A stretch of 39,552 nucleotides of DNA from Planctomycetia bacterium (GCA_016795345.1 JAEUHO010000332.1:1-39552), one strand, 5' to 3'; positions 6,211 through 37,003 are shown, counted from the first letter of the stretch. Program-made: numbers and translations. Notes: generated from the sequence alone by a model not told the origin.

Positions 6211-6236
6211 GCTCCACGGGGCACAAGGCCCAATCC

Positions 6237-7757
6237 TCAGTAGCCGGCAAACGTGACCAACGCAAGGGCGGCGGCGGCCCCGATCCACGCCGCGATCAGC
6301 ACGAGGCAGCCGGTGCCTCCGCCTCGGCGACGAGCAGCGGTGACGCGGGGACTCGCTGCGCCTGGCCGTGCAACCGGTGTGGGAACGGGGGGCGACGCGG
6401 TCGCGCCACCGCCGACTTCTCGGCGCGACGACCGCGGCGCGGCGTCTCTGCTGGACTTCCCGCACCCGTGTGCGTGCCCCCAATCTTCGAACACGCTGCA
6501 GCGCGGGCAGCGCCCCGGATCGCGAGCAACCTTGGGAACAGGGATCCCGGAACGCCGGCCGACGAAGTCCAGGACATGGCCCAGAAGTTCATCATCGAGG
6601 TCGTACAGCGCCGGATATCGCCTTCTGAGGCCGAGAATGTCCTCGATGATCGCAGCGGACGAAGCCCGGTCGAGCGCAGTCGTGTAGGCCCGCACCGACG
6701 CCCGATCGTCTGCATCCGCGTCCGGGATCGAACCGCTGACCCGACCCAGCACGTACAGCGCCCGTGTCGTGAGAGGCCCGGAGACGGCCGGGTCTCCACG
6801 GAGGCGATCAACGTCTCGGAACGCCGCGGCCATCCTGCCGCTGAAGACGCGGAAGTCGCACGTCGTCTCCTCGGCGGGATCCAACAACGAAGCCTCGAGC
6901 GCAAACCAGTGTGCCAAGTCGAATCTCCTGGCCTCTGACCAGCGAAGACCCAACCGGACGAGCCTCGAGGCGATGTACTTCCGGGCCTCAGGCTCGTCGG
7001 GGAGGCACGACCGCATGCGCCTGACCTCGACCGCGATCGCGTCGCGGCGCCCCAGTCGAGCCAGGATTGCACACCGTAGATCGAGCGTATCCAGGTCCGC
7101 CGCGTCGAGCCCCCCATCCGCGGACACGGCCTTGTCGAACCACGCGAGCGCGTTCTCCAGCTCACCCTGTCGCACGTAGGTTCGGGCCGTATGTAGGTAC
7201 GGCATGGCATTCCGCGGGTCCAATCCGATCGCGACCTTGAACCGGTTGCGTGCCTTGATCAGCAACTGATCGTCCTCGATCCCGCCGGTACCGTCCCCCG
7301 CCACCGACTCTCGGGCGTACCCAAGACCATAGTTGATCCAGTACTCTGCCACATCCGGGGCGACTTCCGTGAGGCTCTTGAAGGTCCGGCGTGCATCAGC
7401 CCATCGCTTGAGCTCGAGCTGACACAGTCCGAGCGAGTTGCTCGCGGCGTGACTGCCGGGCCAGAGCACCAGGATCTCCTTCCAGGCGCGTTCCGCGTCT
7501 CCCCACGACTCGGCGGCCATCGAGGCGTGAGCGCGCGCGACCAGCTCCGAGACGCGCTCACCATGGGCCTGAAGCGCGTCGTAGTCCCGGCGAGCAGCCT
7601 CGTCGGAGAGCGTCTCGTATGCCTTGCGAATCAGCGCGAACTTCTCGGCATCGCGTTCCGGCGGGGACTCACGCACCAACTTCGCGTACGCGCGGCGCAC
7701 CTCGTCCCGTGTCGCAGTGGAGGCGACTCCGAGGATCTGATAGTAGTCACTCCCCAT
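6237..7757 (-). CDS. J-like/TPR tail-anchored membrane protein lacking the HPD motif
   Basis: 506 residues. Residues 4-62 clearly follow the J-domain pattern (DYYQILGV, then RRAYAKL, then FALIRKAYETLSD). The invariant His-Pro-Asp that stimulates Hsp70 ATPase is replaced by Ser-Pro-Pro at 31-33. Residues 65-400 are helical and repeat-like; TPR-type units are plain around 100-130, 135-150, 183-213 and 222-240. A Cys cluster, CPRC (417-420) with Cys432, may bind zinc. A Pro/Arg-rich linker leads to one C-terminal transmembrane helix (481-503), giving a tail-anchored protein with its body in the cytoplasm. It starts nine bases after the Hsp70 stop, with GGAGGAG in that gene's end as ribosome site, so it is the last gene of a grpE-like/dnaK-like operon. 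The likely role is an adaptor or client receptor for the Hsp70 next door. More A/T-ending codons occur than in flanking genes. Confidence 0.85.
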   Translation of the reverse strand: MGSDYYQILGVASTATRDEVRRAYAKLVRESPPERDAEKFALIRKAYETLSDEAARRDYDALQAHGERVSELVARAHASMAAESWGDAERAWKEILVLWPGSHAASNSLGLCQLELKRWADARRTFKSLTEVAPDVAEYWINYGLGYARESVAGDGTGGIEDDQLLIKARNRFKVAIGLDPRNAMPYLHTARTYVRQGELENALAWFDKAVSADGGLDAADLDTLDLRCAILARLGRRDAIAVEVRRMRSCLPDEPEARKYIASRLVRLGLRWSEARRFDLAHWFALEASLLDPAEETTCDFRVFSGRMAAAFRDVDRLRGDPAVSGPLTTRALYVLGRVSGSIPDADADDRASVRAYTTALDRASSAAIIEDILGLRRRYPALYDLDDELLGHVLDFVGRRSGIPVPKVARDPGRCPRCSVFEDWGHAHGCGKSSRDAAPRSSRREVGGGATASPPVPTPVARPGAASPRVTAARRRGGGTGCLVLIAAWIGAAAALALVTFAGY

Positions 7758-7766
7758 GGTCTCGAC

Positions 7767-9509
7767 TCACTCCTCCTCTCGCTCACAGTCGTAGAGCAGA
7801 TCGACGAGGCGATTGCCGAGCCTCCTGGTCGCGCCAGCGTCACCGGACTCGATCGCCGCCTTCAGTTCGCCGACCGCCTGGCGGATCGCTTCTCGAGACG
7901 TCCCACTGAGCTCACCGAGCATCCGTTCGGCCTTCTCGATGACGGCTCGAAACTCCCGCGCCTCCGGTCGGGACTGCCAGAGTTCCGAGACCCGCTTCTC
8001 TGCCTCGGCGCGCCCCTCCGGGGACAACACGGCTGCGTTGGCCTTCTCCTCGATCACGACCGTCTGCCCAGTCGCAGGGATCGTCCCTTCCACGCGGATC
8101 AGGCCGTTCAGGTCGTACTGGAAGAGCACCTCGATCGCATGGGGCGTGCCGTCGCTGGCGCACGGGACGTCCGTGATCACGGCCTCCTTCATCAACACGG
8201 CATCCTCCGGGTACCGCGCCCGGCCCGTCGAGTCCTGATAGACACAAACGTTCACCGCATCCTGCTCGGAGCTCATCAGCCGATAGGTCTTCCGTGTCCG
8301 GAAGGGAATCGTCGTGTTGGGGCGGATCAGCGGCTCGTAGACGAGCATGCGACGATCGCCGACGACTTCGACGACGGCGATCCCGACGCCCTTGGGCGCG
8401 ACATCGGTGATGACGGGGCCGGTCGCGCCGTCCAGCAACCCAGAGACCTGCGCGGCTCGAATCGACGCACCCATGGCCACGGCCAGATCCGCCGGGACAT
8501 CGGCTGAACCCTGCTTCCCGAACGTCTCTTCGATGATGTTCCGCACCGCGGGGATGTAGCTGGTGCCACCGACCAAGAGGATCTTCTGTACCGAGCTGGG
8601 GCGTACCCCCTTTGCACCGAGGGCCGTCCTGAGGCAGGCTCGGGTCCGGCTCAACAGCTCCGAGCAATGCCGGTCGTAGTCGTCTCGCGAGACGACGACG
8701 TCGAGGTCGATCTGCTGGGTTGCCGTGGCGCCGACGTTGCGGAGTTGCACTTCCGTGGTCGTTCGGCTCGAGAGGTCGACCTTCGCCCGCTCCGCGCGGT
8801 CCTTCAGATCGCGGTCGAGGTTGGCACTCAACCGGACCTGCGGAACGCTCTGGATCACCCGTTGCTTCAGGAGTGAGATCATCACGTCGTCGAAGTCCTT
8901 GCCACCGAGCGCGACGTCGCCGTGCGAACTGCGGACTTCGATGACCCCGGACATCATCTCCAAGATCGAGATGTCGAGCGTTCCGCCGCCGAAGTCGAAG
9001 ACGAGGAGTTGCTCATCGGCGTCGAGACGCGTGAGCCCATAGGCCAGCGCCGCGGCCGTCGGCTCCGCGACGAGCAGTTGGACCTCCAGCCCCGCGATCC
9101 GCGCGGCATCGAAGGTCGCGCGCTTCGCGACATCGTCGAAGTTCGCCGGAACGGACACCACGGCCTCTCGAACCGGCTGGTTCAGATAGACCTCGGCGCT
9201 CTCCTTGAGGGCTCGGAGGATGATGGCCGCGATCTCGGGAGGACGGTGACGCCGGCTGCCCAGCGGGATCTCGACGTCCCTTCCCATGAGGCGCTTCGAC
9301 TCCCGAACGCCCCTGCCCGGGACGTCGACCGCGCCTCGCGCCTCCTCGCCGACCAACAACTCGTCACGCGAGTTCAGCGCGACCAACGACGGGAGGACCA
9401 CGGACTTCGACGATGCGACCGGCACCGGCTCCGGCCGACCGTGGCGAAACACGCAGATCTCGGAGGTCGAGGTCCCGAGGTCGATGCCGACAGCGAATCG
9501 CTCACCCAT
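7767..9509 (-). CDS. DnaK-like Hsp70 chaperone (short, accessory)
   Basis: 580 residues against about 640 for housekeeping DnaK. The ATPase half has phosphate-1 loop DLGTSTS (10-16), catalytic-type Lys72 in ESKRLMGR, phosphate-2 loop FDFGGGTLD (171-179), DVALGGKDFD (198-207) and adenosine loop LLVGGTSYIP (311-320). A DnaK-style linker is not conserved (around 363-372). The substrate-binding beta domain is recognisable from LIRPNTTIP (394-402) and ALFQYDLNG-like text near 460-470. The helical lid is short (about 495-580) and there is no EEVD-like tail. I prefer ATG 9509 over the in-frame GTG at 9521. ATG 9509 overlaps the stop of the GrpE-like gene by eight bases, so translation is probably coupled. 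This operon layout, with both partners membrane-bound, points to a specialised Hsp70 rather than the general stress chaperone. Confidence 0.93.
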   Translation of the reverse strand: MGERFAVGIDLGTSTSEICVFRHGRPEPVPVASSKSVVLPSLVALNSRDELLVGEEARGAVDVPGRGVRESKRLMGRDVEIPLGSRRHRPPEIAAIILRALKESAEVYLNQPVREAVVSVPANFDDVAKRATFDAARIAGLEVQLLVAEPTAAALAYGLTRLDADEQLLVFDFGGGTLDISILEMMSGVIEVRSSHGDVALGGKDFDDVMISLLKQRVIQSVPQVRLSANLDRDLKDRAERAKVDLSSRTTTEVQLRNVGATATQQIDLDVVVSRDDYDRHCSELLSRTRACLRTALGAKGVRPSSVQKILLVGGTSYIPAVRNIIEETFGKQGSADVPADLAVAMGASIRAAQVSGLLDGATGPVITDVAPKGVGIAVVEVVGDRRMLVYEPLIRPNTTIPFRTRKTYRLMSSEQDAVNVCVYQDSTGRARYPEDAVLMKEAVITDVPCASDGTPHAIEVLFQYDLNGLIRVEGTIPATGQTVVIEEKANAAVLSPEGRAEAEKRVSELWQSRPEAREFRAVIEKAERMLGELSGTSREAIRQAVGELKAAIESGDAGATRRLGNRLVDLLYDCEREEE

Positions 9510-10407
9510 GGACGGCCTCACTCGAAGGGGGAACAGGGGGTGCCGCAGCCTGCCCCGGGTCTGGGGTCGCGACGCTCTCGGTCGGCGGCGGCGGAAGTGC
9601 GGGTGCGGGCGGCATGGCAGGCGGGGGCCTCGCAGCCGTTGTCACCCGCGCAAGCGTCAACACCTGCCCCCGATAGCGGTAGCCCCAGGCGGCGCAGCGA
9701 AGCACCGAACCTTCCGGCACGGTGTCCGACGGATCGGTGCCGACGACCTCGTGTTCGGAGGGATGCACGACGTCCGCGGGCTTGGGGTCGATGAGCGTGA
9801 CTCCGCAGTGCGCGAGGTCGCGGATCATGGCGCGCGCCCGATCTTCCCCTGCGCGGGACAAGGCGTCAGTCCCGTCGCGCTGTCGAAACGCGCGCTCCTC
9901 CGCCCGCACGAAGTCCAGCGCGGTCTTGGCGGTCTCCTCCTCGCGCTTCTCGGCTTGCCGCATGGCGTGCCGAGTCTCTCCGATCGTCCGATCGACCTCT
10001 TGCAGGCCGGTCGAGACGGCCTCGACCCGTGCGACCGCGCTCAGCATCGCGGACAGCGAAGCCGTCGCGTCCTCGAGCGAAGCTCGCAGCTTCGAGTGTT
10101 CTCGTCGCACGGCGTCGAGGTTGGCAACCTCGGTGCGGACGGTGGCGAGGGCCTCGGGAAGCGTCTCCAGCAACTGGACTCGAGCTCGATTGACCGTCGC
10201 GCTCAGCAGGACGAACGCCGCGCCGAGAATCAACGCCGCGGACGACGCGCAGAGCACGACCCTGAGTTCAGGCGGGCCAGAAAGGGCGAGGCCGACGATC
10301 AGGGACACGGCGCCAGTCGCCAGCGGCAACAGCCACGCGAGGACCGCCCCGCGCCACGCGGATCCGGAAGGCGGACTCGTGCCGCTCGACTCGTGACTCA
10401 CTTGCAT
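9502..10407 (-). CDS. Membrane-anchored GrpE-like nucleotide exchange factor
   Basis: 301 residues. Two adjacent hydrophobic helices (about 20-42 and 49-71) form a membrane hairpin, followed by a long helical, coiled-coil-like segment (about 72-165). Residues 190-248 match the GrpE beta head: AHCGVTLIDP, then HPSEHEVVGTDPSD, EGSVLRCAAWGYRYRGQVLTLARVT. Ordinary GrpE has the same order (helix, then the H-x-A/V, D, G-x-V, GY, A-x-V pattern) but no membrane segments. Residues 250-301 are Pro/Ala-rich. The role is inferred as ADP release from the Hsp70 encoded next, at the membrane. ATG 10407 is chosen over much longer open frames because a strong GGAGGAGGA ribosome site precedes it and a sigma-70-like promoter lies just upstream. 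First gene of the operon. Confidence 0.85.
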   Translation of the reverse strand: MQVSHESSGTSPPSGSAWRGAVLAWLLPLATGAVSLIVGLALSGPPELRVVLCASSAALILGAAFVLLSATVNRARVQLLETLPEALATVRTEVANLDAVRREHSKLRASLEDATASLSAMLSAVARVEAVSTGLQEVDRTIGETRHAMRQAEKREEETAKTALDFVRAEERAFRQRDGTDALSRAGEDRARAMIRDLAHCGVTLIDPKPADVVHPSEHEVVGTDPSDTVPEGSVLRCAAWGYRYRGQVLTLARVTTAARPPPAMPPAPALPPPPTESVATPDPGQAAAPPVPPSSEAVHG

Positions 10408-10432
10408 GCGTTCCTCCTCCGCGGCGCGCTGC

Positions 10433-10461
10433 ATTCGATCGCACTGACCACTGGGTGGCAA
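10433..10461 (-). promoter_or_regulatory. Sigma-70-like promoter of the GrpE-like/Hsp70/J-like operon
   Basis: On the minus strand, TTGCCA (10456-10461, five of six to TTGACA) is followed by a 17-base spacer and TCGAAT (10433-10438, four of six to TATAAT). Transcription would start about 20 bases before the ATG at 10407. It is the most consensus-like promoter I found here. Confidence 0.5.
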
Positions 10462-11920
10462 TGATCTCGTCGGTCGTCGTACTCGTCCCTCGCGACCACG
10501 GTGCGCCCCCAGCGTACCCGAGCGACACGCTCGTTGCCTCACGGGTCGCGCGGGATGCCGTCGTCGGTCCCTGCGGGAGGTACCGGCGACGCTGGTGGCA
10601 CGCGAAGGTCGGGCAGCGTCCCGGGACGTCGCTCGTCTCTTGACCGCGTGTGGCGACAAGGACCTTCCGGTGCGCTCCTCGCGATCGGACGCGAGGCCGA
10701 CATCGGCGATCGAGGGCACCGGTCCTCGGGGCGCGGCGGGCATCGCCCGAGTGACGCGCGACCCAAGCCCGTGTGCCGGCGGGATTCGCGTCCGTCCTGA
10801 TTCGGATCGCGCCGGCCGGGAGCCTCGCCCGAAGCGCACCGCAACCCCTCGAGGCGCATCGCGTCTCGCGCCGGCGCCTTGACGATCGCCGGGAGCGGCG
10901 AGTGCGAGGCCGGACTGCGGGCCCGTGAGGCGATCGGGGGGGCCGGTACGCCGTGGCGTCGAAGACGACACGCCGTCCGCAGCGCCCAGCGGCCCGAATC
11001 CGACGTGCGATGCCGCGGTGCGTCGGTCGGAGCAGGCGACGCCCGCGGTCCTGCGCGTGAACCCCCACAACATCGATGAACCGCAGCCTGGAACTGGTCG
11101 GCGCCCACCTCCCATGTCGGATGGTACCGCCGGCGATCCGGCGGAGGGCGGAGGCAGACTCGCCCGACACCGGAGGGCACCGCCGAGATCGCCGAGCGCA
11201 CAGAGGCCGGACAGGGGGCCGACTGCACCATCTGCTGCGCCGAAGAGCCGAACTGGCCGGCGGCTGGCGCCGGGTCGGCGGACGCGTCCACCAGGTCCGG
11301 GGCTCCGCAGGAGCGGAGCGGCTCGCCGCCGGGTACGTCGCGCCCTTGGAGCACCTTGCGCCTGCATCGACCGCACCCGAGGCGGTCGGACGCACACGGG
11401 CGGCTCTTCGCGGCACGTCCAAGACTCGCTCCCTCGAGCACACGAGGCAGGCCTACGCCGAGTCGCGGCTCCGTGACACACCCGTGGGACGTCGACAGCG
11501 GCCCGGAGACCCGGAACAAGGGTCGACGGGGACACCACGTCGCGCGGACGCTCAGGATCACCGAAGCGGCCGGCCGCCGACGCTGACCGAAGGCTCCCCG
11601 CCGGGGACGGTGCTGCGCGGGACGTCGAGTCGGGATGGGCCCCGACGGCAATCCCGAGCAGGGGGTCGTTGACCACCGCCACAGCCCGCCACGGATGGCC
11701 CCGGGGCCTCGCATGGGTCGCCGTCCTCGTCGGCGACGTCGTCCACCGCGGGCTCCGACGACGACGTCGCGGACGACGGCATCGCGGGGCCCCGCCCCGC
11801 CTGAGCGCCCCGGGGTCGCCGGGCCGCCCCCCTGCCCCCGGACCCCCTGTCCCCCCGAGCCGAGGTCCGCCGCCCCGGTGGGCCGGCGAGGACGGAGGCG
11901 GCGGGGATCGCCCGCGCAGG
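10462..11920. other. 1.46-kb stretch without a recognisable gene
   Basis: Several long open frames cross this stretch on both strands, but their translations are Arg/Pro/Ser-rich without domains, signal peptides or plausible starts. No frame shows the strong third-position G/C preference of the genes around it. No tRNA-like T-arm, large palindrome or known riboswitch core was seen. It separates the minus-strand Hsp70 operon from the plus-strand menaquinone operon. It may be a decayed gene, an untranslated RNA region or remnant of acquired DNA. Confidence 0.5.
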
Positions 11921-11921
11921 G

Positions 11922-11951
11922 TTCGGACGCCCCCGGGGGAGGCCCTACACT
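11922..11951 (+). promoter_or_regulatory. Putative promoter of mqnC-mqnE-ispG
   Basis: TACACT (11946-11951) is a four-of-six -10 hexamer. TTCGGA (11922-11927) lies 18 bases upstream as a weak -35. The ATG follows 24 bases after the -10, with GGAG (11966-11969) as ribosome site. Confidence 0.35.
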
Positions 11952-11975
11952 CGCCCGAGGATCCCGGAGTCCCCC

Positions 11976-13091
11976 ATGACCGCCACGCTCGCGAGCGCCC
12001 TCGACGCCGCCTACGACAAGGCCGCCGCCGGGGAGCGCCTGTCCGTCGAGGACGCCGTCCTGCTCCTCGGGAAGGGCGACCTCCTGACCCTCGGGTCCCT
12101 CGCGAAGGCCGCCCGGGAGCGGCACAACCCCGGCAACGTCGTCACGTACATCGTCGACCGGAACGTCAACTACACGAACGTGTGCGTGACGTACTGCTCG
12201 TTCTGCGCGTTCTACCGTCCGCCGGGCCACGAGGAGGGGTACGTCCAGACGTTCGAGCAGGTCGCGGCGCGGCTCGAGGAGCTGCGCGCGCAGGACGGCC
12301 GGCAGGTGCTGCTCCAGGGCGGCCACCACCCCGACCTCCCGATCGGCTGGTACGAGGGGATGCTGCGGTCGATCAAGGCCCGGTTCCCCGAGATCAACAT
12401 CCACGGGTTCTCGCCGCCGGAGATCACGCACTTCGCCGAGATCTGGAAGCTGCCGGTGGCCGAGATCGTCGCGCGGTTCAAGGCCGCCGGCCTGCGCTCG
12501 ATCCCGGGCGGCGGCGGCGAGATCCTCGTGGACCGCGTGCGGAAGATCATCGCCCCCATGAAGGCGACGAGCGACGAGTGGCTCGCGGTCATGGGCGAGG
12601 CGCACCGCCAGGGCCTGACGTCGTCGGCGACGATGATGTACGGCCACGTCGAGACGCTGGCCGAGCGCGTCGAGCACATGGACCGCATCCGCCGCCAGCA
12701 GGACGAGACGAAGGGGTTCACCGCCTTCATCTGCTGGTCGTACCAGAACCCCAACACGAACCTCCTGCGCAAGGTGAAGGACCCCGCGGGCGCCCACGAC
12801 TACCTGCGCACGGTGGCCGTCGCGCGCCTGTTCCTCGACAACGTCCGCCACGTGCAGTCGTCGTGGGTGACGCAGGGCCCGAAGATCGGCCAGCTCGCCC
12901 TCGAGTTCGGCTGCGACGACATGGGCGGCACGATGATGGAGGAGAACGTGGTGTCGGCCGCCGGCACGACGTTCCAGCTGCCGCCCGACGAGATGGAGCG
13001 CACGATCCGCGACGCGGGCTACGAGCCGCGCCGCCGCACGACGTTCTACGAGGTGCTGCCGCCCGTGACCGTCCCTGGAGCCCGCCCGTGA
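11976..13091 (+). CDS. mqnC: Cyclic dehypoxanthine futalosine synthase MqnC
   Basis: 371 residues, a radical-SAM enzyme of the futalosine route to menaquinone. It cyclises dehypoxanthine futalosine to the spiro-naphthalene precursor in the cytoplasm. The diagnostic block is NVVTYIVDRNVNYTNVC followed by TYCSFCAFYR, with the iron-sulphur ligands Cys70, Cys74 and Cys77 (CX3CX2C). QGGHHPDLPIGWYE follows, then SIPGGGGEI, all typical of MqnC rather than MqnE. Length is normal. The stop overlaps the GTG start of mqnE (GTGA at 13088-13091), so the two are co-translated. A strong ribosome site (GGAG, six bases before ATG) supports the start. Confidence 0.93.
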   Translation: MTATLASALDAAYDKAAAGERLSVEDAVLLLGKGDLLTLGSLAKAARERHNPGNVVTYIVDRNVNYTNVCVTYCSFCAFYRPPGHEEGYVQTFEQVAARLEELRAQDGRQVLLQGGHHPDLPIGWYEGMLRSIKARFPEINIHGFSPPEITHFAEIWKLPVAEIVARFKAAGLRSIPGGGGEILVDRVRKIIAPMKATSDEWLAVMGEAHRQGLTSSATMMYGHVETLAERVEHMDRIRRQQDETKGFTAFICWSYQNPNTNLLRKVKDPAGAHDYLRTVAVARLFLDNVRHVQSSWVTQGPKIGQLALEFGCDDMGGTMMEENVVSAAGTTFQLPPDEMERTIRDAGYEPRRRTTFYEVLPPVTVPGARP

Positions 13092-14236: not shown

Positions 14237-15417
14237 GCGGGGCCCCCGCCCGCGGCGTGCAGGTGATCGGGCCCGGCGGGTCGTTCGCGACCCCGCGGGA
14301 CGAGCACGGCTTCCTCCGGCCCCGCCGCAAGGCGCGCGAGGTCCGCGTCGGGAACCTCGTGCTCGGCGGGGCCCACCCGGTCCGCGTCCAGACCATGACC
14401 AAGGGCGACACCGGCGACGTCGAGACGACGTTCGACGAGGTCGTCGGCCTCGAGGCCGCCGGCTGCGAGCTGGTCCGCGCCTCGGTCCCCACGATGCGCG
14501 AGGCGAAGGCGCTCGGCGAGCTCAAGCGCCGCATCAAGATCCCCCTCGTCGCGGACATCCACTTCTCCGCCCCGCTGGCCCTCGAGGCCATCGCGCAGGG
14601 CGTCGACAAGGTCCGCATCAACCCGGGCAACATCGGCACGCGCGAGGAGGTCGAGCGGGTCGTCCGCGCCGCCCGCGACCGCGGCGTCGCCATGCGCATC
14701 GGCGTCAACTCCGGCTCGATCCGCGAGCGCAAGGCGCTCGAGGTGAAGGCGCAGGACGAGGACATGGTCGAGCTCTGCGTGCGCGAGGCCCTGCGCCACG
14801 TCGAGATCTTCGAGTCGCTCAAGTTCCACGACTTCCTCATCAGCATCAAGGCCCACACGGTCCCGCTGACCGTCGCCGCGAACCGCAGGCTCGCGGCCGC
14901 GTGCGACTACCCGCTCCACCTCGGCGTCACGCACGCCGGCTCGGCCGAGCCGAGTTTGATCAAGTCGTCGGCCGCGTTCGGCATCCTGCTCGCCGAGGGC
15001 ATCGGCGACACGATCCGCGTCTCCATCACCGGCGACAACCGCCAGGAGGTCCGCGTCGGCCACGTGCTGCTGCAGGCCCTCGGGCTGCGCGCGCCGACGT
15101 TCGACGTCTACGCCTGCCCGTCCTGCGGCCGCGCCGAGATCGACCTCATCGGGCTCACGAAGAAGGTCGAGGAGGCCACCAAGGGCCTCACCTACCCGTG
15201 CCGCGTCGCGGTCATGGGGTGCATCGTGAACGGGCCCGGCGAGGCCGCGGAGGCCGACGTGTCGGTCTCGGCGGGCAAGGGCGCCGGCTTCATCTACCGC
15301 GGCGTCAAGATGATCAAGAAGGTGCGCGAGGAGGACATCGTCCGCGAGCTGCGCGCCGAGATCGACGCGTGGATCGCGGAGAAGCAGGCCGCCGAGGGCG
15401 CCGCCGCGCAGGGCTGA
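14233..15417 (+). CDS. ispG: 4-hydroxy-3-methylbut-2-en-1-yl diphosphate synthase IspG (GcpE)
   Basis: 394 residues, the compact bacterial form (TIM barrel plus iron-sulphur domain, no plant-type insert). It reduces MEcPP to HMBPP in the MEP isoprenoid pathway. Seen: VRVQTMTKGDTGD (51-63), VADIHFSAPLALEA (106-119), DKVRINPGNIG (125-135), GVTHAGSAEPSLIKSS (231-246), and the 4Fe-4S ligands Cys295 and Cys298 (CPSC), Cys330 in VMGCIVNGPGE and Glu337. All catalytic residues are present. It overlaps mqnE by ATGA. The link with menaquinone genes makes sense because the MEP pathway supplies the prenyl side chain of menaquinone. A structured repeat and a large inverted repeat follow the stop. Confidence 0.96.
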   Translation: MSGAPARGVQVIGPGGSFATPRDEHGFLRPRRKAREVRVGNLVLGGAHPVRVQTMTKGDTGDVETTFDEVVGLEAAGCELVRASVPTMREAKALGELKRRIKIPLVADIHFSAPLALEAIAQGVDKVRINPGNIGTREEVERVVRAARDRGVAMRIGVNSGSIRERKALEVKAQDEDMVELCVREALRHVEIFESLKFHDFLISIKAHTVPLTVAANRRLAAACDYPLHLGVTHAGSAEPSLIKSSAAFGILLAEGIGDTIRVSITGDNRQEVRVGHVLLQALGLRAPTFDVYACPSCGRAEIDLIGLTKKVEEATKGLTYPCRVAVMGCIVNGPGEAAEADVSVSAGKGAGFIYRGVKMIKKVREEDIVRELRAEIDAWIAEKQAAEGAAAQG

Positions 15418-15420
15418 GCG

Positions 15421-15532
15421 GCTGTGGAGGAGTCGGAGACTCCTTCACGGCCGCGAAGCGCGGGCCCGCAGGGCCCGCACGCCGAGCGGGTGCTCGGGGG
15501 GTTCGGGCCCCGAGAACCGAGCGAAGGCGATT
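15421..15532. repeat. 112-bp three-hairpin repeat, copy 1
   Basis: It starts three bases after the ispG stop. Hairpin 1: 15424-15434 pairs with 15438-15448 (11 pairs, loop GGA). Hairpin 2: GCGGGCCC 15460-15467 with GGGCCCGC 15471-15478. Hairpin 3: CTCGGGG 15493-15499 with CCCCGAG 15508-15514. The second copy, 20310-20421, is the same length without gaps and differs at 11 positions, four of which form two compensated pairs. It sits between convergent genes. It could be a bidirectional terminator, a REP-like element or a structured RNA. Confidence 0.85.
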
Positions 15533-15560
15533 TCCAGAGAGCCCTGATGCCCGGTCGTGC

Positions 15561-15640
15561 TCCCGGGACCGCGAGGCCCGCTCGCCGTCCGTTCCGACGG
15601 CCCCGGGGACTCTCGGTCACCGGGCCTCGCGGTCCCGGGA
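15561..15640. terminator. Large inverted repeat of the GGGACCGCGAGGCCCG element between convergent genes
   Basis: The 20-base arms at 15561-15580 and 15621-15640 are perfectly complementary around a 40-base loop. Each arm contains the dispersed core GGGACCGCGAGGCCCG. The position between the ends of ispG (+) and the cyclase-homology gene (-) suggests a two-way terminator. There is no T-tract, as is usual in such GC-rich DNA. Confidence 0.6.
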
Positions 15641-15649
15641 GGAGGGCTG

Positions 15650-16663
15650 CTACCCGACGCCCATGGAGCGCGCGATCTTCGGCCAGTCGCGGACGAGCAC
15701 GCGGCGGCCCTCCTCGGAGACGAGGAGCGACTTCTCCTTGCCCTCGAAGAACGAGCGGTAGCCCGGGCCCTCGACCTGCGACGCGACGAAGAACCGCGTG
15801 AACGCCTCGAGCACCCAGACGTCGATGCCCTGGTAGTACTCGAGCAGCGCGGCGAGGTCGTCCTTGTGCTCGGCGGGCACGCGGTGCACGGGCCCGACGC
15901 CGGGCTTCTCGAGCGGGTCCACGAGGTCCGACGCCATCATCGAGAACATGGGCACGAGCGCGACGGCCTGGCGCGGCGCGAGGTGGCTGCGCACGAACAC
16001 GTTGTGCTTGAGCAGCAGGGCCATGTAGACGGCGAGGAACTCGGGGATGCCCTCGCCCTGCTCGTCGTGGAGCGGCGCGGGCTCCTCGCTGTTGAGCGAG
16101 GGGATCGACGGGTCCACCAGCTGGCAGACGCGGATCATGACGCCGTGCTTCACCTGGAGCTTCAGCTCGCGGAGCTTGCCCTGGTAGGTGTCGCGCTGGG
16201 AGAGGCGCTCGGCGACGACGGGGCCGAGGAAGATGTTGCCGCCGTCGGCCATGCTCATGATGCGCTGGGCCTGGTTGATGCCGAGGCCCGTGACGTTGCG
16301 GTGGCCGTTGACGTCCACCACGAGGTTGTCGCTGTTCTCGTTGACCGCGACGCGCACGAGGAAGCGGCGCTGGCGGTCGGTCTGCTCGGCGTTCAGCGCG
16401 GCGATGCGGGCGAGGAGGTCGAGGGCGATGCCGACGTCGACGTCGTAGGGGCGCATGACGTCGATGAGGACGATGCCGACGCCGTCGCCGGTCGGGAGGA
16501 GGAGTACCTGGTCCTTCGGGACCCCGCTGGCCCCGACGGCCTCCACGATCACGCGGTTGAGCGCGTGGATGATGTGGCTCTGGGCCTCGATGGTGCGGCC
16601 CTTCGAGTAGCCGACGACGTCGAGGAAGACGTACTTCGCGTTGACGGTCTCGATGCTGGACAT
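15650..16663 (-). CDS. Protein with class III nucleotide-cyclase-homology domain, probably non-cyclising
   Basis: 337 residues. Residues 8-155 follow the cyclase homology fold: KYVFLDVVGYSKGRT with metal-type Asp15, LLLPTGDGVGIVL with Asp60, and NVTGLGINQAQRI with Asn130 and Arg134, the transition-state pair. The adenine-selecting Lys usually just before the GD motif is absent (LLP-T-GDG), so substrate specificity or activity is doubtful. Residues 160-337 have no domain I recognise and no membrane helix. ATG 16663 is preferred because the sequence after it begins the conserved strand within ten residues; a longer in-frame start at 16735 adds only a disordered leader. AGCCTAG at 16697-16703 could be its -10 (minus strand TAGGCT). 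A nucleotide sensor or regulator is inferred. Confidence 0.75.
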   Translation of the reverse strand: MSSIETVNAKYVFLDVVGYSKGRTIEAQSHIIHALNRVIVEAVGASGVPKDQVLLLPTGDGVGIVLIDVMRPYDVDVGIALDLLARIAALNAEQTDRQRRFLVRVAVNENSDNLVVDVNGHRNVTGLGINQAQRIMSMADGGNIFLGPVVAERLSQRDTYQGKLRELKLQVKHGVMIRVCQLVDPSIPSLNSEEPAPLHDEQGEGIPEFLAVYMALLLKHNVFVRSHLAPRQAVALVPMFSMMASDLVDPLEKPGVGPVHRVPAEHKDDLAALLEYYQGIDVWVLEAFTRFFVASQVEGPGYRSFFEGKEKSLLVSEEGRRVLVRDWPKIARSMGVG

Positions 16664-16759
16664 GCGCGGGCCCCGGCGGTGGACACGAGCCCGGAAGCCT
16701 AGCACCCCGTCCGCCGCGCCCCCCATCACCCGCACGCAGCGGCGGGGCTGGGCGGCCCG

Positions 16760-18547
16760 TCACCGGTCGCGCGGCACGCGCCGAAGCACGGTCAACACCC
16801 ATCCCTCGGGGCCGTGGCCGCGGTCGATCGTGAGGGCGCGGCGAACCTCGCTGCCCGGACCGATGCGTACCCGCAGCGGCACGACCACGGAGGTGACGGT
16901 CGGCCGGCGCAGCGAGCGGATGCCGATCGGTTCGTTGCGGCCGAGCGCGTCCGTCCCCCAGGGCCTCGGCACGTCGATCGCGTCCCACGCCACGTCGTCG
17001 CCTGCGACGGTCAGGGACAGGTCGAACGTCCGCTCCGGCCGGTCCGGATCCGCATCGCAGGCGGCCACGCGCACGGCGAGCGGGGTGGTCAACGACCGCG
17101 CGAGCGCGGCGAGTTCGCGGACGGTCGCGTCGGTCGGGTCGCCGACGTCCGCGTCGCGCACCGACGACGGAGCGAGACCTGCGTCCACCGGCGCGCCCCC
17201 CACGAGGTCCACGCGGCCCGCCACGGGCCGGCCGGCCGCCCCCGGCCGGTCGACGACGATGTCGAGCGTCTCGACGTCGGGCGGCACGAAGCCGCCGGCC
17301 GCGAGCGCGACTTCCACCCGCGCCCAACCGCGCCGGACGGGAGCGGAGTCGTCCACGCGGAGCACGGTGACGCGATAGCGGCGCCCGCCGCACTCCGCCT
17401 CGCCGACCGCGCCGGCAACCGCCGGCACGACCGTCGTCGCGAAGACCCGCGTCAGGGCCCGCTGCGTCAGGGGTGCGACGAGGTCGCGGGGAGCGAACGG
17501 GGTGTCCTGCGCGACCGAGACGTCGGGCTCGCCTCCGTCCGCGGTCGAACGGTCGAATGACCGATCCAACGTCAGGGTCACCTCCACGGTGCCGCCGTCA
17601 TCGCTCGGCGCCCAGCGTGCCGACACCGTCAGGCCGTCGCGGACGAGGTCGAACAGAGGCGTGTACAGGAAGCACTCCTGCCCGACCTCGAGGTCGAGGC
17701 CGCCGCAGGCAATCCGCGCCCGCCCGCCCGTGGCAGCGACGGAATGCGGCTTCGGTGCGTCGAGCGTGAGCGCCCGCACCGAGCCTTCGGCGGTGGCCGC
17801 CGGGTCCAGCCCCTCGACCAGCAGCGTGGCCACCGGCCCGTCCACCGTGGCGACGCGGTCGAGGGCCGCTTCGATCGTGCCGCGTGCAGCCGACGGTGCA
17901 ACGATACACAGCGACAACCTGGGCTCGCGCGAGGCGACAAAGACCACCGCGCGAGGCCAGAACCTAAGTGCGGCTTCGAGTTCGTCGCACTTCAACCCCG
18001 TGTCGTCGGCTTGCTCGTCGGTCGGAGTCGTCTGGGGTTCGAGCGTCGCGGGGCCCATCGCGTCGCGGTGGGACATCGAAAGGTCGTAGGCGAAGGTCTC
18101 GTACCCGAGCGCGGTCGCCTCGTCCGCTCGTCGGGCTCCCGCCGTCACGCGCCGATCCCACCGCGAGGCGACGTTGCACTCTTCGGTTGTGTCTACGGCG
18201 TCCGCTGCCGCCCGCCGCTCGTCGCGCGCCGCCGCGTCGGCGGGGCACGTCGCGAGGGCCGGATCGGTCGGGGCGGCCGTGGCGGCACCGTCGGGCGACG
18301 GCCGTCTTGCCTCGCACGATCCAGGTCTCGCAGCAACCGCAAGCGCGGGCGGAGCGTCCATGGGCGCAACGAGCGCATCGACGACGGGCGCCGGCGTCGC
18401 CTCGTCCCCGTCGGACGCGAGTCCACCGGGCGTTCCGCCGACGATCATGCCGCCCACGACGCACCCGACCAGGCCGACGGCCACAAGCGTGCGACGGACG
18501 AGCACGACGTCGGGGACCATCGCGGAACTCTCGTCGGGCCGCGTCAC
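16760..18547 (-). CDS. Secreted or membrane-anchored protein of unknown function
   Basis: 595 residues from GTG 18547, supported by GGAGGG ten bases upstream; an alternative ATG lies at 18520. Residues 19-40 (a TLVAVGLVGCVVGGMIVGG stretch) form one membrane helix or signal anchor. The rest is Ala/Asp-rich with several Cys residues (for example in EECNVASRW, GLKCDELE, IACGGLDLEVGQECFLY), which could form disulphides if exported. No known domain is recognised. Codon use is less G/C-extreme than in ispG, so recent acquisition or low expression is possible. It lies upstream of the cyclase-homology gene with a 96-bp gap and is divergent from the methyltransferase. Confidence 0.65.
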   Translation of the reverse strand: MTRPDESSAMVPDVVLVRRTLVAVGLVGCVVGGMIVGGTPGGLASDGDEATPAPVVDALVAPMDAPPALAVAARPGSCEARRPSPDGAATAAPTDPALATCPADAAARDERRAAADAVDTTEECNVASRWDRRVTAGARRADEATALGYETFAYDLSMSHRDAMGPATLEPQTTPTDEQADDTGLKCDELEAALRFWPRAVVFVASREPRLSLCIVAPSAARGTIEAALDRVATVDGPVATLLVEGLDPAATAEGSVRALTLDAPKPHSVAATGGRARIACGGLDLEVGQECFLYTPLFDLVRDGLTVSARWAPSDDGGTVEVTLTLDRSFDRSTADGGEPDVSVAQDTPFAPRDLVAPLTQRALTRVFATTVVPAVAGAVGEAECGGRRYRVTVLRVDDSAPVRRGWARVEVALAAGGFVPPDVETLDIVVDRPGAAGRPVAGRVDLVGGAPVDAGLAPSSVRDADVGDPTDATVRELAALARSLTTPLAVRVAACDADPDRPERTFDLSLTVAGDDVAWDAIDVPRPWGTDALGRNEPIGIRSLRRPTVTSVVVPLRVRIGPGSEVRRALTIDRGHGPEGWVLTVLRRVPRDR

Positions 18548-18605
18548 GCTCCGGTCCCTCCGGGGTCACGTGCACGTCATGCGCGCCGCGCGCACGGCGG
18601 CGGCC

Positions 18606-18612
18606 GTACGAT
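18606..18612 (+). promoter_or_regulatory. Putative -10 motif for the methyltransferase gene
   Basis: GTACGAT lies 36 bases before the ATG at 18649. A GGGAGAGG ribosome site sits directly before the start codon. No clear -35 is seen. Confidence 0.25.
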
Positions 18613-18648
18613 GGGACCGACGGTCCGTGCCTGCGAGCGGGAGAGGTC

Positions 18649-19428
18649 ATGCCCGAGTCCACGCCGTCCTGGTCGTACGCGACGCCCGAGCCGCTCGCCG
18701 CGCGCATCGCGCTGCATGCGAAGTACGGCACGGCGCGCGAGCCATGGCACCGCTGGGTGTTCGACCGGATGGACCTCCGCCCCGGCGCCACGGTGCTCGA
18801 GGTCGGGTGCGGTCCGGGCACGATCTGGGCACGGAATGCGGACCGACTCCCCCCAGACGTCCGTTTGACCCTGACCGACCGGTCGCCGGGGATGGTCGAG
18901 GCGGCCCGTCGGATGCTGGGCGAGACCGGCATCGAGGCCACCGTGGCGGTGGCGGATGCGGCCCGGCTCCCGTTCGCGGAGGCCACGTTCGACGTCGTCC
19001 TCGCGGCGCACATGCTCTATCACGTCGAAGACCGTGCGCGGGCGATCGCCGAGGCGCGCCGCGTGCTCCGACCGGGCGGACGCTTCGTCGCGACCACGAA
19101 CGGGCGCGCGCACCTCCGCGAACTCGAGGCGTTCGCCTGCGGGCACGTCGCCGGATGGGTCCCCCCCGCCCCCACCCTGGCGTTCGGCCTCGAGCACGGC
19201 GAGGCGCAGCTGCGCGCGTCGTTCCGCGACGTGTCCCTCTCGCGCCACGAGGGAGGCCTCGTGGTCCCGCACGCCGAGCCGCTCCTCGCGTACCTCTGCT
19301 CGCTGCCCGGGCTCGACGCACTCCCCTTCGCCGACGTCGCGCGGCTCCGCGCGGCGCTCGAGGCCCACGTCGGGGCGCACGGCGCGCTGCGGATCACGAC
19401 CGACAGCGGGGCGTTCGTCGCGAGGTGA
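18649..19428 (+). CDS. Class I SAM-dependent methyltransferase
   Basis: 259 residues. Motif I is VLEVGCGPGTIWA (49-61), the acidic residue binding the SAM ribose is Asp77 in LTLTDRSP, motif II-like is VADAARLPF, and motif III is LRPGGRFVATTNG. This is the UbiE/small-molecule type arrangement (Methyltransf_11). No substrate can be assigned. It could be a quinone or small-metabolite methyltransferase, but it is not near enough to mqn genes to argue for that. The start has a strong ribosome site. A 35-bp gap separates it from the next plus-strand gene. Confidence 0.88.
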   Translation: MPESTPSWSYATPEPLAARIALHAKYGTAREPWHRWVFDRMDLRPGATVLEVGCGPGTIWARNADRLPPDVRLTLTDRSPGMVEAARRMLGETGIEATVAVADAARLPFAEATFDVVLAAHMLYHVEDRARAIAEARRVLRPGGRFVATTNGRAHLRELEAFACGHVAGWVPPAPTLAFGLEHGEAQLRASFRDVSLSRHEGGLVVPHAEPLLAYLCSLPGLDALPFADVARLRAALEAHVGAHGALRITTDSGAFVAR

Positions 19429-19463
19429 CGTGCCGGCCAGCGGGCCTCGCGTACCATCGCGGG

Positions 19464-20306
19464 ATGGCCGCGACCCCGGTGCCCCCGCGACTGCACGCGA
19501 TCCTCGCGCGGGACGGTCGGCACGCCGTCGTCCTCGCGCGCGTGCGGCGTCGGCTCACCGCGAGCGTGGGATGGGACCTGCGGCGCGACACGTTCGAGGT
19601 CGGGCAGTACGTGCGGGCCACGCTCGCGCCGCTGCGGTCCGACCTGTCGCCCGACGGGAGACACTTCGTCTACTTCGCGCTCGACGGCCGACGGGCGGCC
19701 CGCGGCGCGACGCTCGCGTACACCGCGGTCTCCCGCCGGCCGTGGCTGAAGGCGCTCGACTTTCACCCGGCCGGCGACACGTGGTACGGCGGCGGCCTCT
19801 TCGTCGACGACGAACACGTGTGGCTGAACGGCGTGGAGAAGCACCCCGAGGCCCGCACGACGTCCGGGCTGCGGCGGGCCGGGCGCCCGCGCGCGGCCGG
19901 CGCCGGCGACACGGGGGACCAGAGCGTCTACGTCCGCCGGCTGCTGCGCGACGGGTGGACCTCGACGGGGTCCCGCACGCTCACGCCGCGGCACGACGTC
20001 GCGACATTCGAGCGGGACCTGCGGCACGGGCACGTGCTGCGCAAACGTCTCCACGCGACGTCCGGCCCTCGCGCCGAGGGACGCGGGTGCGTGTACGAGA
20101 CCCACGGGGTCGTCGGCCCCGCCGGGACGGAGACCGCACACGACGACTGGTCGTGGGCCGACGTGGACGGGCCGCGCGCGCGGGTCGTCTTCGCCCGCGA
20201 CGGCGCGATCCACGCGGCGCCGCTCGGCCGGACCGGCCCGGGCCCGTCGTGGGTCCTCTTCGACGCGAGCGGCCTCTCCTTCGAGGCGCTCGAGGCTCCG
20301 TACTGA
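19464..20306 (+). CDS. Conserved-looking protein of unknown function
   Basis: 280 residues, no signal peptide or membrane helix. Beta-rich, with LSPDGRHFVYFALDG around 58-72, which resembles a TolB/beta-propeller strand, and many Trp and Tyr residues (KALDFHPAGDTWYGGGLFVDDEHVWLN is one such run, stated here only by its key W, G and D residues). Repeated patterns of a verdict such as DWSWADVDGPRARVVFARDG near the end also fit short propeller-like blades. Start ATG 19464 is six bases after GTACCAT (19451-19457), so it may be leaderless. A copy of GGGCCTCGCG (19442-19451) overlaps that motif. Function unknown. Confidence 0.7.
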   Translation: MAATPVPPRLHAILARDGRHAVVLARVRRRLTASVGWDLRRDTFEVGQYVRATLAPLRSDLSPDGRHFVYFALDGRRAARGATLAYTAVSRRPWLKALDFHPAGDTWYGGGLFVDDEHVWLNGVEKHPEARTTSGLRRAGRPRAAGAGDTGDQSVYVRRLLRDGWTSTGSRTLTPRHDVATFERDLRHGHVLRKRLHATSGPRAEGRGCVYETHGVVGPAGTETAHDDWSWADVDGPRARVVFARDGAIHAAPLGRTGPGPSWVLFDASGLSFEALEAPY

Positions 20307-20309
20307 GAG

Positions 20310-20421
20310 GCTGGGAAGGAGTCGCAGACCCCTTCCCGGCCGCGAAGCGCGGGTCCGAAGGGCCCGCACGCCGAGCGGGTCTTCGGGGGGTTCGGGCCCC
20401 GAAAGCCGAGCGAAGGCGATT
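20310..20421. repeat. 112-bp three-hairpin repeat, copy 2
   Basis: It starts three bases after the stop of the upstream gene, like copy 1. Hairpin 1: 20313-20323 with 20327-20337 (one A/C mismatch). Hairpin 2: 20349-20356 with 20360-20367 (one G/U). Hairpin 3: TTCGGGG 20382-20388 with CCCCGAA 20397-20403. The convergent minus-strand gene ends at 20455. Confidence 0.85.
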
Positions 20422-20454
20422 CGTCCACGAACACGGACGCGACGGGCGACGCGC

Positions 20455-20985
20455 CTACGACTTCGCCGGCGGCACGTTCGCGTCGAGCCAGGCGAAGAGC
20501 TCGCGTTGCCGGGCGCGCGAGAGCATCCAGAGCGGGATGCGCCGCTCGGTCCCGTCGCGCCGCGTCACGAGATGGGTGCCGACGTACCCGGTGCCCGGGC
20601 GCCAGACCAGCTCGCGGGCCTCGAACGTGGCGACGCGCGCCGGGAACGCGCGGCGCCAGTGGAGGCGGCCGTCCTCGGTCCGGAGCATCGGCGCGAGGAG
20701 ATAGGTGAGGGCCGAACTCACGGCGTAGCCGCTCGCCAACGCCAGCGGGATCGCGACGAACGCCACGGGCACGACGTCGATCAGGCGGCCCGGCGCCCCG
20801 ATCAGGACGGCGGCGCGGACGAGCACCGACACGTAGGCGACCGTGAAGCACGCCGCGACGACCTGCGCCGCGACGAGGGAGAACCGGACCCGGAACCCGC
20901 GCGGCCCGGAGGCACCCACACCGGCCTCGTCGCGCGTCGCGCGCGGGCCGTAGGCGGGGACGGGCGTCAGGTCGCCGACGTACAC
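20455..20985 (-). CDS. Two-helix membrane protein, paralogue A
   Basis: 176 residues from GTG 20985. Two membrane helices occupy about residues 31-60 and 70-98. The C-terminal cytoplasmic part has GRLHWRRAF, ARELVWRPGTGYVGTHLVTRRDGTERRIPL and a final R-x-LFAWLDANVPP. The neighbour at 21085 has the same order of blocks. The GTG start is chosen over a longer in-frame GTG at 21078 because it makes the N-terminus (LTPVPAYGPRA) line up with LPAPTGYGVRA of the paralogue. The tail region resembles small membrane proteins with a PH-like domain, but I cannot confirm this. Function unknown. Confidence 0.65.
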   Translation of the reverse strand: MYVGDLTPVPAYGPRATRDEAGVGASGPRGFRVRFSLVAAQVVAACFTVAYVSVLVRAAVLIGAPGRLIDVVPVAFVAIPLALASGYAVSSALTYLLAPMLRTEDGRLHWRRAFPARVATFEARELVWRPGTGYVGTHLVTRRDGTERRIPLWMLSRARQRELFAWLDANVPPAKS

Positions 20986-28234: not shown

Positions 28235-29010
28235 GCGCGACCGCCGGGCCCGCGCGCGCGCGGCGGGTCCTCGTGATGCTGCCGGCGTACCACGAGGAGA
28301 AGAACCTCCCGCCGCTGCTCGCGGACTTCCGCGACACGTTCGCGCGCTGGCCCGGCGCGCCCGCGTGGTCGCTGCTCGTCGTGGACGACGGGAGCAAGGA
28401 CGGGACGGCGGCGGCGGCGCGGTCGGTGCCGGGCGTGCCGGTCACCGTGATCACGCACGCGGTGAACCAGGGGCTCGGCGCCGCGATGCGGACCGGGATC
28501 ACGTACGCGCTCGAGCACGGGACGGACGACGACCTGCTGCTGACCATGGACGCCGACCACACGCACCCGCCCGAGCTGGTGCCGTCGATGGTCGCGCTCG
28601 CGGACGCGGGGAGCGACCTCGTGATCGCGTCGCGGTACCAGCCCGGGGCCGAGATCCACGGCCTCGTGTGGTGGCGGCGGTGGCTGTCGGACGCGGCGTC
28701 GCTCGTGTTCCGGGCGGTGTTCCCGTGCGGGGCGCGCGACTACACGTGCGGGTTCCGGTGCTACCGGATCGGGCTCCTGCGCTGGGGGCACGCGCGGTAC
28801 GGGCGCCACTTCCTCAACCAGCGCGGGTTCTCGGTGATGGTGGACCTGCTGCTGAAGCTGCGGCGCCGGGCCCGGCGCATCGCCGAGGTGCCGCTCGTGC
28901 TGCGGTACGACCGCAAGCAGGGCGCGAGCAAGATGAAGGTCGTGCGCACGATCGTGACGACGCTGCGGCTGCTCGGCCGGCGCTTCGTGGGCGACCCGAC
29001 GGGGCCTTAA
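28231..29010 (+). CDS. Family 2 glycosyltransferase, dolichyl-phosphate mannosyltransferase-like
   Basis: 259 residues. GT-A fold motifs: VLVMLPAYHEEKNL (13-26), VVDDGSKDGT (50-59), NQGLGAAMRTGI (79-90), the metal-binding DAD (107-109) in TMDADHTHPPE, then IASRYQPGAEI, CGFRCYRIG, and a final RYDRKQGASKMK block typical of DPM1-like enzymes. These transfer a sugar from a nucleotide donor to a polyprenyl phosphate or related lipid at the inner face of the membrane. There is no C-terminal membrane domain. It overlaps the wecB stop by ATGA, so the pair likely makes and uses an activated amino-sugar or a lipid-linked sugar. The donor and acceptor are not determined. Confidence 0.88.
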   Translation: MSATAGPARARRVLVMLPAYHEEKNLPPLLADFRDTFARWPGAPAWSLLVVDDGSKDGTAAAARSVPGVPVTVITHAVNQGLGAAMRTGITYALEHGTDDDLLLTMDADHTHPPELVPSMVALADAGSDLVIASRYQPGAEIHGLVWWRRWLSDAASLVFRAVFPCGARDYTCGFRCYRIGLLRWGHARYGRHFLNQRGFSVMVDLLLKLRRRARRIAEVPLVLRYDRKQGASKMKVVRTIVTTLRLLGRRFVGDPTGP

Positions 29011-29073
29011 CCCCCCGGTCCGACAGCGAGACAACGGGGTCGCAGCCCTTCGTCTCGGTGTTGACCCGGGGGG
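29011..29073. terminator. 63-bp inverted element filling the gap between two convergent genes
   Basis: The outer arms CCCCCCGG (29011-29018) and CCGGGGGG (29066-29073) touch the stop codons of the glycosyltransferase (TAA) and of the ArsR gene (TGA read on minus). An inner stem pairs CGAGAC (29027-29032) with GTCTCG (29052-29057). It occupies the entire intergenic space and probably acts as a two-way terminator. Confidence 0.65.
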
Positions 29074-29460
29074 TCAGGGGTCGCGGCGACGGCGGCGGAG
29101 AGGGCGGTGGGCGGCACCGGGGGACCGCGCGCGGGAGTCCGGCGGCTCGACGTGCAGCGGGATCCGCGGACGGGCGGCCGGCGGGGGCAGGAGGCCCCGG
29201 AGCCACCGGTCGGACAGGGCGGTGAGCGGCGCGGGGTCCAGCGTGTTCCAGGTGACGCGGCCCTGCTCGCGCGCGCCGACGAGGCCCGCGCGCCGCAGCA
29301 CGCCGAGGTGCTTCAGCACCGCGAACCGCGTCAGGCGCGGGAACGCCGCGCACAGGGCCCCCGAGGTCCGCGGCCCGGCCCGCAGCAGGTCGAGGAGGGC
29401 CCGCCGCGTGGGGTCGGCGAGCGCCCGGAACACCGGATCGAGATCGTCCCCGGCCGTCAT
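29074..29460 (-). CDS. ArsR-family winged-helix transcription regulator
   Basis: 128 residues from ATG 29460, preceded by GGAG at four bases. The winged helix is clear: DPVFRALADPTRRALLDLLRAGPRTSGALC (8-37) with the recognition helix in FPRLTRFAVLKHLGVLRRAGLVGAREQGRVTWNTLDP. There is no metal-binding CxC or obvious ligand motif, so it belongs to the non-metal or unassigned group. The C-terminus is Arg/Pro-rich. An alternative ATG at 29478 adds six residues. It is divergent from the desaturase gene, and the 94-bp gap between them is the natural place for its operator, so it may control that operon. Confidence 0.85.
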   Translation of the reverse strand: MTAGDDLDPVFRALADPTRRALLDLLRAGPRTSGALCAAFPRLTRFAVLKHLGVLRRAGLVGAREQGRVTWNTLDPAPLTALSDRWLRGLLPPPAARPRIPLHVEPPDSRARSPGAAHRPLRRRRRDP

Positions 29461-36797: not shown

Positions 36798-36862
36798 GTC
36801 GCCGCCGTGCGACCCGGGCCCTGCGTCCGCCCGCCAGAGCGCAGCGGACGGCCGGACGGGGC

Positions 36863-37003
36863 GGGCCTCGCGTGCCGCGGGTCGGGCCTCGCGTGCCGCG
36901 GGTCGGGCCTCGCGTGCCGCGGGTCGGGCGTCGCGTGCCGCGGGTCGGGCCTCGCGTGCCGCGGGTCGGGCCTTGCGTCCCGCGGGTCGGGCCTCGCGGT
37001 CCC
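36863..37003 (+). repeat. 21-bp tandem array built on the GGGCCTCGCG half-core
   Basis: Six units, GGGCCTCGCGTGCCGCGGGTC or with one to three changes, run from 36863 to 36988. A seventh, 36989-37003, reads GGGCCTCGCGGTCCC, the reverse complement of the dispersed core. Units 1-3 and 5 are identical. The array is in frame with the downstream FHA gene without stops, but no start or ribosome site supports translation. Confidence 0.9.

Follow-up and report, generated by a model that had tools for sequence, protein, structure and literature searches.

A stop-flush palindromic repeat family in a planctomycete genome, probably a non-autonomous mobile element integrated 3' of CTGA

A three-hairpin repeat occurs in about 30 copies scattered over the genome of a Planctomycetia bacterium, far beyond chance. 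We read it, with a probability of about 0.6, as a species-restricted, non-autonomous palindromic mobile repeat of the REP/PATE/MITE kind, about 130 bp long and inserted, always in the same orientation, 3' of the tetranucleotide CTGA. Two of the copies lie in the stretch of 39,552 bp that was analysed (the window). Its source genome (G000) is a draft of 4.9 Mb in 614 contigs with 88% completeness and, judged by its nearest relative, a Planctomycetota MAG.

The earlier note had described the two window copies at 15421-15532 and 20310-20421 as aligning without gaps with 11 differences in 112 positions, and realignment gives exactly this number, with most of the differences preserving pairing. Both doubly changed pairs that it listed (T-A to G-C at 15425/15447 and C-G to T-A at 15493/15514) are present, as are the wobble changes at 15427/15445 and 15465/15473. 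Positions 15492 and 15516, placed by it outside the stems, are actually opposed to each other: copy 1 has G.A there and copy 2 has C-G, and half of the 20 aligned copies have T-A. Our own gene calls, made with a simple codon-usage gene finder trained on the source genome, agree that both copies lie between convergent genes. The folds of both are very stable (-72 and -66 kcal/mol).

Table 1. Features of the two repeat copies in the window.
Feature	Position	Strand	Remarks
TGA stop of ispG/gcpE	15415..15417	+	within CTGA 15414-15417 flanking the element
Copy 1, full element	15418..15547	+	three hairpins and 3' tail ending CCCTGA; from the 20-copy alignment
Copy 1, hairpin 1	15420..15452	+	15 bp stem, 3-nt loop; holds most compensatory variation
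Copy 1, hairpin 2	15460..15478	+	8 bp stem
Copy 1, hairpin 3	15480..15529	+	lower stem nearly invariant, upper stem covaries
Copy 1, 3' tail	15530..15547	+	family form TTCTTCACAGCCCTTGA; from the alignment of copies with flanks
TGA stop of upstream gene (about 19464-20306)	20304..20306	+	part of CTGA
Copy 2, full element	20307..20436	+	last ~18 nt of tail diverged; alignment and covariance model
Copy 2, hairpin 1	20309..20341	+	
Copy 2, hairpin 2	20349..20367	+	
Copy 2, hairpin 3	20369..20418	+	

A BLAST search of the source genome returned 37 matches, 23 of them strong. The covariance-model search that the earlier note had proposed, with a model built from 20 copies, found 29 matches at E < 1e-3 in the genome (the one for copy 1 spans 15414-15550), which bears out the existence of a repeat family; an exact pattern for hairpin 1 was too strict and matched one copy only. 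Alignment of the copies with their flanks gives a full unit of about 130 bp with three hairpins. The unit begins directly 3' of TGA with GMGGCTGTGAAG. A start three bases after the stop had been proposed; the three skipped nucleotides (GCG/GAG) are the first bases of the conserved unit. At the other side, the unit ends in most copies about 20 nt beyond the previously assigned end, in CTTCACAGCCCTTGA, and the 3' CTTCACAGCC is an inverted match of the 5' GGCTGTGAAG and, in addition, a repeat of the 3' arm of the first hairpin.

Eight short forms (L019, L020, L026-L029, L058 and L059) are missing the first hairpin or the first two and still start at a stop codon. The start of the full element reads CTGAGCGG and the foot of its third hairpin CCGAGCGGG, and the joint in L027-L029 and L058 reads CTGAGYGKG, so the short forms were probably produced by deletion between the direct repeats CTGAGCGG and CCGAGCGGG. 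Copies L005 and L002 (C316:8050-8317) form a head-to-tail tandem which reads CTGA-[unit CCCTCGA]-[unit CCCTTGA], with the joint CCCTCGA-GAGGCC. Since their near-identical first hairpins share private variants, the tandem would have arisen by local duplication or from a dimer.

The family is species-restricted. At the thresholds used, it is absent from one congener and from 57 further genomes of the phylum; the covariance model gave marginal matches only (27-34 bits) in two other relatives. No match was found in viral contigs (searched with one exact pattern), plasmids or phages, nor in the window for any Rfam family at the gathering score.

Other repeats occur in the window as well. A second, more abundant motif, CGCGAGGCCCGS, is found at 15558-15645 and at least 35 other places (e.g., 15570, 19440, 22993, 25281, 26888, and 36787), with 36 window matches at no more than one mismatch against 11.9 expected. 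It often forms an inverted pair in intergenic DNA and also stands beside several copies of the main repeat on other contigs. Directly after a gene that ends with TAA at 29010 comes an unrelated stable hairpin, CCCCCCGGTC...GACCCGGGGGG (29008-29077, -46 kcal/mol), and a minus-strand array of CGCGAGGCCCGA-like units spaced by 21 or 42 bp occupies 36861-36998. The codon-usage finder calls no gene at 6210-11976 and 17845-18892 despite long ORFs, owing either to atypical genes or to the limits of the finder.

The earlier claim of a gene-end location with a preference for convergent pairs holds across the family: 25 of the 33 catalogued copies, short forms included, abut the in-frame stop of the upstream gene, the full-length ones at an identical distance. 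Two catalogued copies are at contig ends. Two full-length ones, L013 and L015, have no stop next to them, and L015 lies beside a tRNA gene. Where the downstream neighbour of an at-stop copy is known, the pair is convergent in 17 cases and codirectional in six. The convergent share exceeds that of the element-free spacers of the source genome and the congener, with a Fisher p around 1e-3 in order of magnitude (for counts of 18:6, on small samples).

The flank is specifically CTGA, which is stricter than stop-codon usage predicts. Full-length copies are flanked by TGA, with one TAA exception and no TAG, against a background of 54 TGA, 15 TAG, and 2 TAA, and the base preceding the flanking stop is C more often than in the background. 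A requirement for any stop codon would accept TAG. L013 (CCGA), L015 (CTGC, not at a stop), and L008 (CGGA, where the gene runs off the contig) each carry a one-letter variant of CTGA, as expected if an unselected CTGA decays.

How much of the stop anchoring follows from this flank depends on where CTGA is available. In the element-free spacers of the source genome, CTGA is at a stop in 4 out of 4 convergent and 13 out of 19 codirectional cases (17/23 together); in those of the congener, in 11/22 and 9/16 (20/38 together). These small counts, taken from spacers between called genes with divergent ones excluded, give a background of 53-74%. A first background, in which 52 of 141 noncoding CTGA were at stops, made the anchoring look very specific and was discarded because it included long unannotated stretches. 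As most intergenic CTGA in this compact genome are stops, a CTGA target combined with purifying selection predicts most of the anchoring, and insertion at CTGA together with selection against gene disruption largely explains the gene-end location. Stop-flush copies (16-17 out of 19) are still somewhat above the CTGA background, with p of about 0.007-0.09 depending on the background chosen (0.01-0.03 at 61%, 0.09 at 74%). This residual excess leaves room for something more, e.g., targeting that recognises stop codons, translation-termination sites or the convergent gene-end context beyond the letters CTGA, which would make insertion nearly harmless and supply a bidirectional 3' structure; we consider such targeting very unlikely. 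In a relative (G005), one copy of the palindromic repeat family ACACCCGGTACC (L190-L205) overlaps the ispG stop. We looked at this family as a parallel stop-adjacent case and rejected it, as most of its other copies are not flush with stops.

Comparison with the congener indicates that the stops are older than the insertions. Congener IspG ends at the same residue as its orthologue in the source genome, with TAG and no element, and the orthologue of the gene upstream of copy 2 also ends at the same residue. One concatenated search of upstream-gene C-termini found recognisable congener orthologues for 19 out of 24 genes (the exceptions being the upstream genes of L004, L011, L014, L019, and L057). 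The C-termini coincide exactly in eight of the 19, lie within 1-2 residues in seven, and differ by 5 to 44 residues for the genes upstream of L007, L018, L020, and L027; the element is absent at all congener orthologue sites compared. As most orthologues lack the element and yet terminate at the same residue or close to it, the copies arrived at existing stops and, as a rule, did not create them by truncating genes. The at-stop status of L007 is doubtful, as the reading frame there extends 44 residues past the end of the congener orthologue, which suggests that, upstream of the insertion, the frame has shifted or a stop has been lost.

The hairpins covary more than neutral evolution would predict. 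The covariation score of the alignment is 0.123 against 0.091 for column shuffles, none of 500 shuffles scoring as high. In a tree-aware simulation, which started from a paired ancestor and let every site evolve independently on the FastTree tree, 5.6 +/- 2.5 doubly changed cells were expected and 23 observed (0/400), and pairing was 91.4% compared with 87.4% in the simulation. The signal is located in hairpin 1 and upper hairpin 3, the lower part of hairpin 3 being nearly invariant in sequence. Selection on one strand as RNA should make G-U departures more frequent than A-C ones. Their ratio is 29:25, with one fixed U-G pair left out, and thus gives no sign of selection on an RNA strand. The earlier proposal of selection on a fold therefore stands in so far as the hairpins are maintained beyond neutral expectation, and is not supported at the RNA level. 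The constraint more likely acts on DNA hairpins recognised in mobilisation, or reflects templated correction of the palindromes.

In the latter case, compensatory changes would be made when imperfect palindromes are corrected during replication, one arm being copied from the other, and no selection on the fold would be needed. Double changes do come in short runs inside one hairpin (e.g., GAGTC/GACTC vs GAACC/GGTTC), and the mismatch types lack strand bias. Such correction must nevertheless be inefficient, since G.A, C.A, and other mismatched intermediates persist and pair 12/34 is unpaired in 6 out of 20 copies. We regard it as possible, though on balance unlikely, and it concerns the covariation only, being compatible with a mobile element.

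A functional RNA at transcript 3' ends, either a bidirectional terminator or an mRNA-stabilising structure kept where genes converge, would fit the start of the copies at stop codons, their predominance between convergent genes, the stable folds and the above-neutral covariation. No intrinsic terminator (a GC-rich hairpin followed by a U run) was found in 15300-20600, which speaks against the two-way terminator suggested earlier, and the element is not a canonical terminator. Moreover, the pairing departures favour neither strand as RNA, a 3'-end function would not predict the avoidance of TAG stops, the congener orthologues lack the element, and an insertion is also safest in a convergent spacer. 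Altogether, a role as RNA seems quite improbable.

Among mobile elements, a classical MITE of a DDE transposase would be bounded by the 10-12 bp terminal inverted repeat RRGGCTGTGAAG, with the TGA at either side as a 3-bp target duplication. The element does begin with GMGGCTGTGAAG and has the inverted match CTTCACAGCCCT at its 3' end, TGA or CGA stands on both sides of most copies, and the source genome has five DDE_Tnp_1 loci. Yet none of these loci (DDE_Tnp_1 being the family searched) carries the ends of the repeat, so we rejected them as parents. The flank on the top strand of the element is TGA and never TCA, hence the target is not symmetric, and CCCTYGA is kept on the 3' side of copies with TAA or GTGA as 5' flank, which makes the 3' TGA look internal to the element. 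A DDE origin is therefore unlikely.

Of the three readings in the earlier note, the REP-like mobile element fits best, although the host enzyme that it was to be carried with was not found. Y1_Tnp (PF01797) gave no match in the 88% complete draft, while a Y1 transposase is present in the congener and most relatives. We considered a RAYT/REP origin and rejected it: the source genome lacks Y1_Tnp, and the RAYT-like gene of the congener is flanked by unrelated GGTGCCNGGCACC palindromes. That congener gene (G001, L183 760-2010) lies between GATACACCGGTGCCNGGCACCGGTGTATC palindromes in inverted arrangement and is likely a REPtron of the genus. A search for IS91-type Y2_Tnp gave no match, and its controls gave none either. 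The ends of integron attC sites were also compared and dismissed, as the core ends RYYYAAC...GTTRRRY do not occur, the two ends read CTGAGMGGCTG and CAGCCCTTGA, and the copies stand after ordinary genes such as ispG.

Several known repeats resemble the element in part. GTAG/CGTC REPs are palindromes of intergenic DNA, found preferentially near gene 3' ends where neighbouring genes are convergent or codirectional. Their families are confined to single species and many number 20-100 copies, and the TAG stop of an adjoining ORF is reported to come often from the terminus of a GTAG REP (PMC3733652). Our family shares the palindromes, the intergenic placement at gene 3' ends and the restriction to one species. 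However, REPs are single palindromes of 20-40 bp, whereas the element has about 130 bp and three hairpins, starts with GMGGCTGTGAAG, is flanked by CTGA, carries neither a GTAG nor a CGTC tag, shows no G-T pairing bias and has no Y1 (RAYT) transposase found in its genome. PATEs (palindrome-associated transposable elements) are relatives of the IS605-type transposons (PMC3119063). The element resembles them in its near-terminal palindromes (hairpins 1 and 3), lack of coding capacity, conserved short terminal target oligonucleotide and core deletions between short direct repeats (PMC3119063). It differs from PATEs and from IS200/IS605 elements by its 10-12 bp terminal inverted repeat GGCTGTGAAG...CTTCACAGCC, and no related IS200/IS605 transposon was found in the source genome. 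As a PATE-type target flank, CTGA is clear; the 3' end of the element also reads TGA, which blurs a duplication.

Like the element, MIRUs of mycobacteria occupy precise codon landmarks, inserting at overlapping stop/start codons, and hardly affect the gene. They too are short mobile repeats (PMC12548453), but contain a small ORF and lie between co-oriented coupled genes, while the element consists of hairpins and lies mostly between convergent ones. With MITEs it shares the short length, non-autonomy, terminal inverted repeats and many copies (reviewed in PMC10969869); unlike them, it has no parent transposon found and no demonstrated target duplication.

Our preferred reading is thus a non-autonomous mobile repeat that would integrate directly 3' of CTGA in one fixed orientation. 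Purifying selection would close coding DNA to it, and in this compact GC-rich genome the remaining CTGA would mostly be stop codons, so that surviving copies would be stop-flush and mostly between convergent genes. We take it for a small selfish element, harmless in such places, more readily than for a signal in gene control. A mobilising enzyme (or replication) would act on the hairpins as DNA, with active source copies kept paired and individual copies decaying. We infer mobility itself and an enzyme, as well as a single-strand (IS200/IS605-like) route, which is suggested by the fixed orientation, CTGA outside the element, the similar TTGA at its 3' end, the subterminal hairpins and the head-to-tail tandem. 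Against this reading, the terminal inverted repeat GGCTGTGAAG/CTTCACAGCC is atypical of IS200/IS605 derivatives, and the congener has diverged too far between genes to provide an empty/filled site pair at the DNA level. Candidate flanking ends for an autonomous partner are GGCTGTGAAG...CCGAGCGAAGGCGA.

Overall, the family is best seen as a new species-restricted case of the known small palindromic mobile repeats. For this planctomycete lineage, it adds repeats whose boundaries are sharp and whose target follows a candidate rule. Compensatory changes within palindromic repeats cannot on their own establish an RNA function, and comparing G-U with A-C departures is a cheap check. The family may serve as a worked case of how palindromic repeats would accumulate flush with stop codons through a four-letter target left open almost only at gene ends.
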